From: Diploscapter coronatus
Lineage: Eukaryota > Nematoda > Chromadorea > Rhabditida > Rhabditidae
Reading direction: 5' to 3'
Length of the DNA stretch: 64,000 nucleotides
NCBI GenBank assembly: GCA_964036155.1
Contig: OZ038423.1
Span: forward strand, 25,497,249-25,561,248
Shown: positions 23,219 through 28,811 of the stretch, one piece after another
Position numbering within the stretch: position 1 is the stretch's first letter
Layout of the letters: each line of letters starts with the position of its first letter
Position numbers and translations under genes: made by a program
The notes under the pieces: generated by a model
Told to the model about the DNA's origin: nothing
The model's database searches: none
Seen by the model: only the letters and a program-made list of their open reading frames with translations

Positions 23219-23456
23219 CTTCGTTTTCGGCTACTGCAAGGAACGAAAATAAATCGACCGCAATGGCTGCACAACGCTGTAATGACCAGTTGACTCGGAG
23301 TTTTCAGCTTCGAACAAAAGTCTACAGTAATCTCATGCTTGAAAGCCTTCATCTTGCTTTCGTTGCCCCGAGGAAAAATTGAACAAATGTGAAGTCGAAT
23401 ATATCGCTCTGTCCAATTCGACTGTCGATTTGCATCCGTTTCATCGTCCAACGGCT

Positions 23457-23613
23457 TTTTGTATAGTTCACCCGTTCACCTGTTCACCCTTTTGTATAGT
23501 TCACCCGTTCACCTGTTCACCCTTTTGTATTGTTCACCGTTTGTATTGTTCACCCTTTTGAATAGTTCACCTTTTGTATTGTTCACCCTTTTGTATTGTT
23601 CACCCTCATTTCG
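23457..23613. repeat. Terminal minisatellite, left arm of the foldback element
   Basis: Eight or more imperfect units around TTTTGTATTGTTCACCC (about 17 bp), with variant GTATAGTTCACCCG and GTTCACCTG units near the tip. The mirror-image array lies at 28231-28401. Confidence 0.9.
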
Positions 23614-25242
23614 CCAACTGCGCCAAAGAACTCAAATTCGTAATGTTTCGTCCGCAATCTGGAAATGAAGGCACCTATTTATTCAAACCAAAATAGCCGG
23701 AAAGAAAGTCTCGACTTATAATTTTCAAATTTAGCATATTTTCGTCAATATTATGTAAAATTTAGAATTTTCTTTAGAAATTTCATATAGTAACTCATAA
23801 TAATCGGAAATAACTTACTATTTTGGCAACTTGTAAAAGTAACCCCGAATTTAAAAAATGTCAGTAGCATACCGAATGACCCCAAAAAGTGTCAAATCGA
23901 TATGCTAATTATATTCTACATTTAATCTCCTTCAATTTCATGTATGGTATCCTTAGGTAGTAAATTTCTACTTGTCTTCAATAAGATCCCCTAGAGTTAA
24001 CTATAGGAAACTCAGAGTATCTGACAGAAATAGAGGTTTTTGAGATACCTAATTCCCGAAGTTCACTATAGACCCCCAAACCCCCTATCAAAATGAACTA
24101 TTCTATCATGTCTTACTATTTCTGAAGTCTATAGGCCATTACATCCATCTTTCTGGTCATTGGACTCACTCATGTACTCAAAATCGAGGTAAATTTACAT
24201 TACCGTCCCTACAAGTGATCACAGTGATCCCGGAACTTCTAGTTGCCGATCAGGGAATGGCTAGTTTTCAACAGGACTATCAAATTTACTAATTCCATAT
24301 CCTGATTAGGTTCTTTATAGTCATTCGGGGGTGACTATGAGGGTTGAATTGGGTCTATTTTCAAAAAAATCGAAAATTTCAAAAATTCAACCATTTCATG
24401 TAGGGCTACTATTCTAGAAGCTCTCAGTAGCTGATCGGGGAATAACTGACTTCCCTTTTTGATAACATATCTCCAAACATCATATCTGTTTTGGTAGTAC
24501 TGAAGTCATCTTAGGTCACTGTCGACTTTTTTCGACCAAACCGACATATGGCTGCAAAATATGACATTTATCCCCACCGAATGACCCGGAAAAGTGACAA
24601 ATCGATATGCTAATTAGTCTAATTATATTCTACACGAAATCTCCTTCAATTTCATGTATGATCTTCATAGATACTAAATTTCCACTTGTCTCCAACAAGA
24701 TCCCTTAGAATTACTATAGGAAATTGATGATATCTGACAGAAATAGAGGTTTTATAGATGTCTGATTCGGGAAGAATGTCATAGATCTCCAAATCGCCTA
24801 CCAAAATGAACCATTCTGTCATGTCTTACTATCTCTGAAGTCTATAGCCCATTACATCCATCTCTGGAGTCACTGGGCTCGCTCATGTATAGGGAGTTTC
24901 AAGTTTATCTCCATATTTTACTTTTTGAATATTTTTCTTTTTTATTTTTCATCCAAATTGAGTACGGTTTTTTGCATACTACTCTCCTTACCTTATGATT
25001 TTGTCTGGTATAGCTCTTTAATCGAAACAAATTACCCACACCCATAAAACCACCTGTTTTGTCAAAAACTAATTCTTGGTACCTAAGAAAATGTTCAAAG
25101 ATTCATAACTTTCTTATTTCGGAACAAAATTTCATTATTCTTTTTTTATTCGACAGCATCTAGTCTCTAGATTATCATGCATCAAGAGATAATTTTTTTG
25201 AATACTAACTTCTGCGGAAATGCGCATTTTTCGCGTCTCGAT

Positions 25243-26250
25243 TGCAGACTTTTCTATCCGTACTGCCTATACGCGTAAATGACGTCGGAAAAATTCGTCC
25301 TTCCAGTATGCTGTGCAGAATGACACGACGAACAACTTTTCTTTCAGGACCGACCTCGGATTCATTATCGTTAGGGCTCCAAAATTTTTTGAAGTTCGAC
25401 GGCCAAATTCAGCATAATGATTTTTTAGTAAAAATTTTCAAAAAATCATATCTCCCTGTGTGTGCATATTCTAAAATAACTTCTGGAACAAAAGTTGTTC
25501 ATCATGTCCATCTGCACAACATATCGAAAGGACAATTTTTTCCAACGCCATTTACGTGTAAACGTAGTACGGGCGTATAGGGTATCTTCGGGTAGCTTTT
25601 TCCTGCCAAAATTAATTTTCAAAAAATTTCTTGCTACTTTTAGATTATTCTCCTGTTGAATATCTGCAAAATAAAAAAATAATTACGAAAATTTTCCAGG
25701 TACATAGGAAGATATGATTTTTTGAAATTTACTGTCCAAACAGCACTTTGCAATAATTAGTCATTGAACTTCAAAAAATTCTGGAGCTCCAACGATAGCG
25801 ATTCGAGAGTTGGCCCAATGACGAAAGTTGTTCAGCATGTCATTTTACACAACATATTGGAAGGACGGATTTTTCCAACGCCATTTACGCATAAACCCAG
25901 TACGGGTATATGGGGTAATTTCGGGTAAATTTTACCCGTCAAAATTAATTTTCAAAAAATTTCTTTTTATTTTTCCCATATTCTCCTCGACAAGATCTAA
26001 GAAACAAAAAAATAATTATCAAATTTGGTTTAGAAATAAGAAAATTATGAATTTTTAAAAATTTGTGCTAAAAAAGCATTATGCTGAATTTGGCCGTCGA
26101 ACTTCAAAAAATTCTGGAGCTCCAACGGTAGCGATTCGAGAGTTGGTCCAGTGATGAAAGTTGTTCAGCATATCATTCTACGCAACATACTGGAAGGGCA
26201 GATTTTTCCAACGTCATTTACGCATATAGGCAGTACGGATCTAAAAGTCC
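25243..26250. repeat. Central ~333-bp tandem array of the foldback element
   Basis: Three direct copies of a segment running from AGTTGTTCA to CAGTACGG-like sequence start near 25496, 25825 and 26158, a period of 332-335 bp. Each contains TTTTTCCAACG.CATTTACG. A further inverted copy occupies about 25250-25345 and continues the palindrome (CGTACTGCCTATACGCGTAAATGACGTC...). Flanking copies of TTCAAAAAATTCTGGAGCTC appear near 25770 and 26103. No coding function is apparent. Confidence 0.75.
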
Positions 26251-28230
26251 GTAATCGAGACGCGAAAAGTGCGCATTTCTGCAGAAATTGGTATTCAAGA
26301 TTTTTTATCTCTGATGTATGATAATCTAGAGACTAGATGCTGTCGAATAAAAAAAGAATAATGAAATTTTGTTCCGAAATAAGAAAGTTATGAATCTTTG
26401 AACATTTTCTTAGGTACCAAGAATTAGTTTTTGACAAAACAGGTGGTTTTATGGGCGTGGATAATTTGTTTCGATTAAAGAGCTATACCAGACAAAATCA
26501 TAAGGTAAGGAGAGTAGTATGCAAAAAACCGTACTCAATTTGGATGAAAAATAAAAAAGAAAGTTATTCAAAAAGTAAAATAGGGAGAAAACCCTGAAAA
26601 ACCTGTACATGAGTGAGCCCAGTGACTCCAGAGATGGATGTAATGGCCTATAGACTTCAGAAATAGTAAGACATGACAGAATGGTTCATTTTGATAGGGG
26701 GTTTGGGGGTCTATAGTGAACTTCTGTAATCACACCTCTCTAAAACCTCTATTTCTGTCAGATCTCATGAACTTCCTATAGTAATTTTAAGGGATCTTGT
26801 TGAAGACAAGTGGAAATTTAGTATCTATGAAGATCATATATGAAATTGAAGGAAATTAAGTATAGAAGATAGTTAGCCTAATTAGCATATTTATTTACCA
26901 CTTTTTCGAGTCATTCAGTGGGGGTGAATGCCATATTTTGCAGTCATATCTCGGTTTGGTCGGAAAAAGTCGACATAGTGACCCAGGGTGACTTCATTAC
27001 TATCAAAACAGATATGATATTTGGAGATATGTTATCAGAGAGGATAATTAGTTATTCCCCGATCGCCAGCTAGAAGTTTCGAGATCACTGTGATCACTTA
27101 TAGGGACGTAATGTAAATTTACCTCGATTTTGAGTGAATGAGTGAGCCCAGTGACCAGAAAGATGGATATAATGGCCTATAAACTTCAGAAATAGGTGTA
27201 TCACATCCAACTGGTCATTTTGGTAGGCGATTTGGGGATCTATGACATACTTTTGGAATTAGGTATCTCAAAAACCTCTATTTCTGTCAGATACTCTGAG
27301 TTTCCTATAGTTAACTCTAGGGGATATTGCTGGAGACAAGTGGAAATGTGGCACCTAGGGAAGTCATACATGAAATTGAAGGAGATTAAGCGTAGAATAT
27401 AATCAGGCTAATTAGAATATCGACTTGTCACTTTTCGAGTCATTCAGTGGGGGTGAAAGTCATATTTTGCAGCCATATGTTGGCTTGGTCCAGTTGTAAC
27501 CCCATAACTCAACTAGGCATATCCGAGTATGGTGATTATGACATGGTATCAGGAGTACTGATACCAGAGATGAAATACAGACCATGAACGACCATTTTCG
27601 GATATGTTTTGGACTGCTACGGTCGCTCGAGTATGTCTATAGTGAACGTTTCATCATTTTTGAGTACATGAGTGAGCCCAGTGACTCCAGAGATGGATGT
27701 AGTGACCTATAGACTTCAGAAATAGTAAGACATGATAGAATAGTTCATTTTGATAGGGGGTTTGGGGGTCTATAGTGAACTTCGGGAATTAGGTATCTCA
27801 AAAACCTCTATTTCTGTCAGATACTCTGAGTTTCCTATAGTTAACTCTAGGGGATCTTATTGAAGACAAGTAGAAATTTACTACCTAAGGATACCATACA
27901 TGAAATTGAAGGAGATTAAATGTAGAATATAATTAGCATATCGATTTGACACTTTTTGGGGTCATTCGGTATGCTACTGACATTTTTTAAATTCGGGGTT
28001 ACTTTTACAAGTTGCCAAAATAGTAAGTTATTTCCGATTATTATGAGTTACTATATGAAATTTCTAAAGAAAATTCTAAATTTTACATAATATTGACGAA
28101 AATATGCTAAATTTGAAAATTATAAGTCGAGACTTTCTTTCCGGCTATTTTGGTTTGAATAAATAGGTGCCTTCATTTCCAGATTGCGGACGAAACATTA
28201 CGAATTTGAGTTCTTTGGCGCAGTTGGCGA

Positions 28231-28401
28231 AATGAGGGTGAACAATACAAAAGGGCGAACAATACAAAAGGTGAACTATTCAAAAGGGTGAACAATACAA
28301 AAAGGTGAACAGGTGAACGGGTGAACAATACAAAAAGGTGAACTATTCAAAAGGGTGAACAATACAAAAGGGTGAACAGGTGAACGGGTGAACTATACAA
28401 G
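28231..28401. repeat. Terminal minisatellite, right arm of the foldback element
   Basis: Imperfect ~17-bp units around GGGTGAACAATACAAAA, the reverse complement of the left-end array, with GGTGAACGGGTGAAC variants near the tip. Copy number and unit order differ slightly from the left side. Confidence 0.9.
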
Positions 28402-28415
28402 AAGCCTCGTCCAAC

Positions 28416-28811
28416 ACATTCTCTCTTCGCCCCGCCCACTTCTCTTTGTCCGCTTTGCATTTATTCATCCCGCTGCTTTTCTCATTTGAAACACTTTTGT
28501 CACAAGATTGTCGTTACTTTTCTGATTTTCATAATGTCTTCGTTTTCATTCGTTCCATTCGGGCACGGAATATTCCGTCTCGAAAACCCGAATTTCGGTC
28601 ATTTTTGGGCCCATTCCATTTCGTTTCGCGTCCTGAAAATTTAGGAAGCGAATTCTGTTCCGCGCTGTGTTTCGAAAATCTCCAAATTCCATTTCGTACA
28701 ACCCTAGTTTCATTGAATTATTCAAGCTCCAGAGTCCCTCGTTCGCAATAAATGAACCGTAATGAATCGAGAAACTGCGAGATAATTTTAGATTTTAAGC
28801 GACTAATTGAA
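28416..28811. other. Gap between the foldback element and ATAD2, with a TTCCGTTYCG-type interspersed repeat
   Basis: About 28540-28710 is low-complexity sequence built of ATTCCATTTCG/TTCGAAAA-like words ending TTTCGTACAACCCTAGTTT. A similar block at 53635-53705 ends TTCGTACAACCCTGATTA. The ATAD2 promoter should be in the last 100 bp. A 101-residue frame here is not accepted as a gene. Confidence 0.45.

Follow-up and report, generated by a model that had tools for sequence, protein, structure and literature searches.

The Foldback (FB) elements of Drosophila carry long inverted arms with internal tandem repeats, a structure shared by the element described here, and generate 9-bp target duplications. 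The closest known system is Tm1 of root-knot nematodes (Mutator/Foldback family), in which, as in the present case, composite inverted ends contain short tandem motifs in variable numbers and are flanked by 9-bp duplications, a few larger non-coding elements accompany many miniatures, empty sites are found, and asexual nematodes are among the hosts (PMC3169594; statements on published systems draw here on parts of the cited papers). The birth of foldback transposons and the persistence of arm likeness are an unsettled matter: gradual expansion of the ends has been proposed for the origin (cited in the Tm1 discussion, PMC3169594), and repair of one arm from another for the upkeep (Galileo discussion, PMC3573991). 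Here, a 4,954-bp non-coding foldback element without assigned strand (23453-28406) is described in a 64,000-nucleotide stretch of Diploscapter coronatus DNA (the window), which corresponds to C2:25497249-25561248 in a 169.7-Mb assembly of three contigs. Two of these, C1 and C2, are the long contigs (87.7 and 82.0 Mb); the remaining one, of about 13.4 kb, is perhaps the mitochondrion. The element is quite probably a non-autonomous foldback DNA transposon that is present on one haplotype, was mobilised by an enzyme of a Mutator-like element (MULE) encoded elsewhere, and has arms that are kept alike by patchwise copying. Its value lies mostly in what it suggests about how foldback mirrors form and persist.

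The element is delimited by its ends and by the sequence directly outside them. Perfect copies of the 9-mer TCGTCCAAC abut both ends and form the target-site duplication (left copy 23444-23452, right copy 28407-28415, both plus strand), and the ends GGCTT(T/C)TTGTATAGTTCACCC are exact and inverted at 23453 (plus strand) and 28406 (minus strand). The left tip (23453-23605, plus strand) consists of GGCTTTTTGTATAGTTCACCC and a minisatellite whose units measure about 17 and 33 bp, and the right tip (28235-28406, minus strand) of a minisatellite and the terminal sequence GGCTTCTTGTATAGTTCACCC in the minus-strand reading. The arrays of these ~17- and ~33-bp units occupy 23457-23605 and 28235-28404. 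Both tips are alike in GGCTT(T/C)TTGTATAG. At up to three mismatches, the tip pattern has nine matches in the window, all within the element, against a mean of 0.02 over 100 shuffles. The sequence-only reading, which had proposed a foldback transposon of about 4.95 kb with inverted GGCTT(T/C) ends, minisatellite tips and a perfect 9-bp target duplication, is thus confirmed in each of these respects.

Comparison of C2 with C1 establishes the insertion. The left flank aligns to C1:27159909-27160961 with 94% identity and the right flank to C1:27160953-27162442 with 92% identity, and the two matches overlap by exactly nine bases, TCGTTCAAC (C1:27160953-27160961), which form a single, uninterrupted target. 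Because the left and right flank matches share one 9-mer on C1, C2 has the element and C1 the empty site, and the element is a true insertion on one of two haplotypes. To judge from these alignments, C1 and C2 apparently correspond at this site to the two haplotypes of a diploid with high heterozygosity, which fits the figures for the D. coronatus genome (170 Mb, 2n = 2 and 5.7% heterozygosity; PMC5483258). Barring a precise loss from the other haplotype, the insertion is younger than the haplotype split, and this points to transposon insertion after haplotype divergence in a lineage that is probably old and asexual. That the mirror instead stems from faulty assembly, or from a mere inverted segmental duplication involving no transposon, is extremely improbable: palindromes are a known source of mis-assembly (PMC7953838), but the other long contig contains the exact empty site with one 9-mer, and a second copy with a different 9-bp duplication lies elsewhere. 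The right flank also contains a dispersed repeat (28563-28717 of the window), parts of which recur at 12 further sites on the two long contigs.

The second full copy is located at C2:22516139-22521590 and has its own perfect 9-bp duplication, GATTTTTAG. Genome-wide, the tip pattern with up to three mismatches gives 319 matches (164 + 155), a count that takes in minisatellite units inside elements, against 15 (8 + 7) for the reversed control; the element therefore has company in the genome. Neither of the two results that would have refuted the sequence-only reading, a lack of other copies or an empty-site comparison speaking against insertion, was obtained. Large elements were counted where tips are recognisable at both ends, which left out C2:38522869 (L010), whose single tip is diverged, and C2:61508600, with a single 'C' tip. 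Six of the seven elements so defined have perfect 9-bp duplications, and the seventh, C1:65293976-65299025, has a perfect 8-bp duplication, CATTCTTC, identified by eye; the automatic duplication search gave many false ends, which arose at truncated regions or from inverted repeats belonging to a core. Twelve short elements (L009 and 11 others picked as close inverted tip pairs) are miniatures of 80-207 bp. Their duplications are perfect 9-mers in two cases, have one mismatch in one case and two mismatches in two, and have at least three mismatches in the other seven, one of which has a cut-off flank.

Relatives with arms and core 82-89% similar to those of the element have tips of two other sets, and their duplications are likewise 8-9 bp long; the element with the 8-bp duplication CATTCTTC is one of them. 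Those flanked by GCTTATAGA and CTTTCAGGA have the tips GGCTCTTATAAAAAGCCGTAGGGCC, and those flanked by TGAATATTC and GTTTTTAAG have the 'C'-type tips GGCAACTTGG/CGCAATCTGG, the two 'C'-tip relatives each having unlike ends, GGCAACTTGG and CGCAATCTGG. A related arm-and-core body therefore occurs with three different tip sets.

Several further observations were made on miniatures and related foldbacks. Two miniatures (L074/L081; C2:15144440 and C1:15949232) are near-identical and have alike 12-base flanks on both long contigs, and some miniatures thus seem to be older than the haplotype split, unlike the element of the window. The miniature L076 has a hairpin fold with a z value of -4.8. In a related foldback (L054/L033, C1:67280272-67286286), the outer arms show 100% identity over 1,057 bp up to the limit of the segment analysed, and the palindrome is probably longer than this segment. 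In the group L018-L026 (C1:23290241, 82040443, 84043139 and 48433878), the arms are related and the centre is different; in the two members that were mapped (C1:23290241 and 48433878), the arms are 84-86% alike to those in the window, and the centre is about 0.8 kb long and differs from the mariner-like core described below.

Long inverted arms make up most of the element, as is typical of a foldback. Inverted-repeat analysis places the left arm at 23653-24887 (plus strand), with two arm units about 714 bp apart, and the right arm, which mirrors it, at 26608-28188 (minus strand), with three arm units about 530 bp apart. The arm inverted repeats are nested and measure 653, 429, 288 and 253 nt, with identities of 98%, 83%, 97% and 83%, respectively. 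As is also expected of foldbacks, tandem repeats are present, namely the 17/33-bp tip arrays, the 530/714-bp arm units and the 333-bp core units. The arms of about 2 kb that the sequence-only reading described as mirroring each other do so over about 2 kb per side, albeit as a patchwork: identity per 100-bp step is 97-100% in the best stretches and falls to 47-94% in others (the lowest values being due partly to gaps), and there is one unit of about 530 bp more on the right than on the left. The lack of a coding frame that it noted also holds: the longest stop-to-stop frame has 123 codons, whereas 300 base shuffles give a median of 95 and a 95th percentile of 133, and no frame in the element exceeds chance by this measure. 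The element has no match in Rfam and encodes no transposase. The view of a non-autonomous foldback with a 9-bp duplication, served by an unseen transposase, is supported.

The arms contain a buried tip. The 'C'-type tip CGCAATCTGGAAATGAAGGCAC at 23653-23674 (plus strand) is the same as one outer end of the relatives C2:43799275 and C2:61149251, and its mirror copy at 28167-28188 (minus strand) has the CGCAATCTGG version, as on the left. Both arms share this one version, whereas the two 'C' relatives differ end to end. Because the CGCAATCTGG tip of the 'C' relatives is also found inside the element (at 23653 and, mirrored, at 28188), the element is layered, with outer tips, buried tip, arms and core.

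Likeness between the arms was examined further by comparison with the second copy. When the latter is turned around, 4,738 of 5,473 alignment columns are identical; 333 of the gap columns correspond to one core unit and 185 lie within one patch. The longest identical tract measures 1,070 bp, and 184 of the 195 substitutions fall within five patches, each longer than 100 bp. One patch (23996-24099, plus strand) differs from the second copy and equals the opposite arm of its own element at 104/104 positions, which suggests probable arm-to-arm conversion; the version carried there by the second copy has its nearest match within either element at 83/103. In another patch (26456-26839), it is the second copy that equals its own opposite arm (379/385), the corresponding value in the window copy being 347/383. 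Two of the five patches may therefore be attributed, on the basis of these matches, to arm-to-arm conversion, the first with the reservation that a third copy could be the donor.

The mobilising enzyme is most likely of the Mutator-like kind. MULE target duplications are 8-11 bp long, typically 9 bp (PMC6446971), and the empty site and the duplications of the present family are in this range, with the qualification that seven of the 12 short elements lack a clean copy. At E 10, the MULE domain PF10551 has four weak matches in the genome. The corresponding transposase exon is 100% identical over 125 amino acids at four loci and has two more distant relatives; two of seven homologues of the exon are named D. 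pachys. When four homologues were scanned for the MULE domain, two passed the cut-off, with scores of 28.2 and 27.7, one scored 19, and one (D. pachys) gave no match. Thirty-base samples of two MULE copies, taken at ten distances between 1.6 kb ahead of the exon and 1 kb beyond it, agree at five. One copy resides in a 4,339-bp element (L105/L104, C1:28701730-28706068) whose inverted ends contain minisatellites and which is flanked by the 9-bp duplication AATAATCAA; the ends and the duplication were identified by eye in that one copy at positions that were not preset. The tips of this MULE element differ from those of the window element, and the identity of its exon at four loci makes it look recently copied.

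Mobilisation by another cut-and-paste transposase that makes 8-9 bp duplications, such as a Merlin/IS1016, P or hAT relative, is considered unlikely. It would accommodate the occurrence of both 9- and 8-bp duplications and the failure to find a MULE bearing the tips of the window element, and the case of Galileo indicates that foldback shape does not settle the superfamily (PMC3573991). However, the Merlin-type domain PF12762 (DDE_Tnp_IS1595) has no match in the genome at E 1 in an intron-blind search that did not extend to P and hAT, and the same genome has a MULE element that combines minisatellite ends with a 9-bp duplication and whose exon is identical at four loci. Since no MULE with the tips of the window element was found, the Mutator assignment rests on duplication length and on the company in which the element occurs.

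In the preferred interpretation, that of a MULE-mobilised foldback, the element inserted into one of the two haplotypes of a nematode that is probably a parthenogenetic Diploscapter. A transposase from elsewhere would recognise the GGCTTYTTGTATAGTTCACC tips together with the minisatellite, and would make 9-bp and sometimes 8-bp duplications. The mirror may have arisen by fold-back copying across the palindromic core, and the mirrored arms would stay alike through patchwise arm-to-arm copying. A number of observations weigh against this interpretation. With regard to the insertion, the single empty haplotype could also reflect precise loss there, a search with the joined flanks of the second copy gave no listed match across the junction (40 scored of 322 candidates, the right flank being a high-copy repeat), and a clean 9-bp duplication is missing in seven of the 12 short elements. 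With regard to arm conversion, three of the five long patches have no arm donor, one of them having a near match (125/129) in a stand-alone core, and the 104-base version of the first patch also has a 104/104 match in a third region, C2:74958648, which makes a third copy another possible donor. With regard to the enzyme, PF10551 has no genome match at E 0.001, the MULE exon scores 20.5 bits for this domain, below the Pfam cut-off of 27.6, and no tip of the window type with up to two mismatches lies within 10 kb of the six MULE-like loci (matches with three mismatches near these loci were listed in part, and proximity was judged by eye).

The axis of the mirror is occupied by a core of its own (24890-26605, no strand assigned; right end judged by eye), which is non-coding, contains 333-bp internal repeats and is over its whole 1.7 kb close to one palindrome. 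A TA dinucleotide adjoins its left edge (24888-24889, plus strand) and another its right edge (26606-26607, plus strand), the latter placed by eye at an end that is too diverged for the motif scan. Many relatives of the core stand alone elsewhere in the genome (among 40 scored of 965 candidates), starting with TACAGGGTGTTTCAAGTTTATC or close to that within mutually unrelated flanks. In 46 merged regions, a scan for the core-end motif with up to six mismatches found TA at 50 of 50 matches; one of these matches, C2:22522695, evidently belongs to another element. Judging by sequence features, the core has the look of a separate, palindromic, non-autonomous Tc1/mariner-like element nested on the mirror axis. 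A TA target duplication is what is expected of Tc1/mariner, the superfamily to which the core presumably belongs, a name given from the ends and TA alone.

The flanks of the core consist of mirrored arm sequence, starting from the TA, in five arm-bearing regions that have both motif ends and, by eye, in the window. The same is true of a second foldback family (C2:37997120 and C2:64804093); a further member of that family, C2:29664370, has no mirrored core flanks, its left inner arm having been replaced. The region C2:29662878 was considered as an unmirrored precursor and rejected, since other sequence substitutes there for the left inner arm.

Two accounts of how the core came to lie on the axis may be compared. 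In the first, which is a real possibility although its chances are put at below even, a mariner transposase inserted the core at the central TA of an existing palindrome, with the tip of a hairpin or cruciform as the target. TA-targeting elements could favour a symmetric TA. In keeping with this, the mirrored arm flanks end in CTCAT(G/A) directly before TA in the same five regions and the window, and both core flanks in the two members of the second family end in GGAAAAAG followed by TA. This account nevertheless requires exact hits in two families, and the coreless mirror centre that would favour it, TCATGTACATGAGNGAGC, has no match at up to one mismatch, a weak test because the arms of relatives differ by 10-18%. 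Coreless arm junctions of the form CTCATG-TA-CTCAAAA, present in 14 of the 46 regions, do not discriminate between the two origin models.

In the second account, which is advanced as a tentative and somewhat doubtful suggestion, the palindromic mariner-like element serves as a seed from which foldback transposons are made out of other DNA. The core would land in a transposon, and fold-back copying over its inverted halves would mirror one flank, tip included; the resulting element would have matching ends on both sides and could be moved by a MULE enzyme. Tips would later be swapped or added in layers, and the arms would be kept alike by conversion. If correct, this would explain both why two families have the core on their mirror axis and why the same CGCAATCTGG buried tip is present on both arms, in contrast to the unlike ends of the two 'C' relatives.

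Comparison with known systems places these features in context. The element is likened to FB of Drosophila by structure, not by sequence, and is unlike it in that its body holds a separate mariner-like palindrome. Tetris of Drosophila virilis is likewise a non-autonomous foldback, with 8-10 bp duplications and an autonomous partner that was not found; its arms reach 1,735 bp and contain internal tandem repeats, for which homogenisation is possible (PMC4079207). Tetris differs in that its arm repeats are 220 bp long and no nested mariner-like core is described in the parts of that paper used here (PMC4079207). In Galileo, a member of the P superfamily, sequence and length are exchanged between arms, and arm-from-arm repair and chimeric copies have been suggested, whereas its duplications are 7 bp and its transposase is of the P type (PMC3573991). 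Since arm exchange or homogenisation has been described for Galileo and Tetris, arm conversion as such is not new. Rehavkus and Phantom MULEs resemble the present element in their duplications, of 9 bp (8-10 bp in Phantom), and in having minisatellites close to an end; these MULEs have a transposase (PMC6446971), whereas none was found with the tips of the window element.

For the core, the nearest likeness is Mcmar of Meloidogyne chitwoodi, which is Tc1/mariner-like and has unusually long, repeat-bearing inverted ends of 355 bp (via PMC3169594), in comparison with an entire near-palindromic, non-coding core of 1.7 kb here. In a survey of parthenogenetic genomes by gene order, one gene-bearing palindrome was reported for D. 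pachys (PMC7953838). A mariner-like palindrome inside foldbacks was not found among the titles and abstract openings of the literature on foldback palindromes and arm conversion, which is no proof of absence. In the portions of the literature compared, neither a mariner-like palindrome nested on a mirror axis nor a body with three tip sets was met. The long identical tracts with discrete patches, the relatives with other tips, the empty allele and the axis palindrome in two families make the proposals for foldback origin and upkeep testable by strain comparison.

Tm1 remains the most instructive comparison. One Tm1 element also has a nested inverted-repeat element, of 936 bp, but the latter has 7-bp duplications rather than TA, and a position on a mirror axis is not reported in the sections of that paper considered here (PMC3169594). 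The Tm1 elements whose lengths were compared are about 0.9-2.6 kb long, against 4,954 bp here, and a Phantom-type transposase with Tm1 ends is known, whereas none was found with the ends of the window element (PMC3169594). The end motifs differ as well: the tandem motif C of Tm1 is about 14 bp long with the consensus CGATTCAGTATCGC, whereas that of the present element is about 17 bp long and reads, by eye, TTTTGTATTGTTCACCC; and the outer motifs A1 and A2 of Tm1 are asymmetric, whereas GGCTT(T/C)TTG is present here at both tips (PMC3169594), although the two 'C'-tip relatives also show unlike ends. Because the element shares neither of these two Tm1-defining end features, it is not filed as Tm1, though it works like Tm1.

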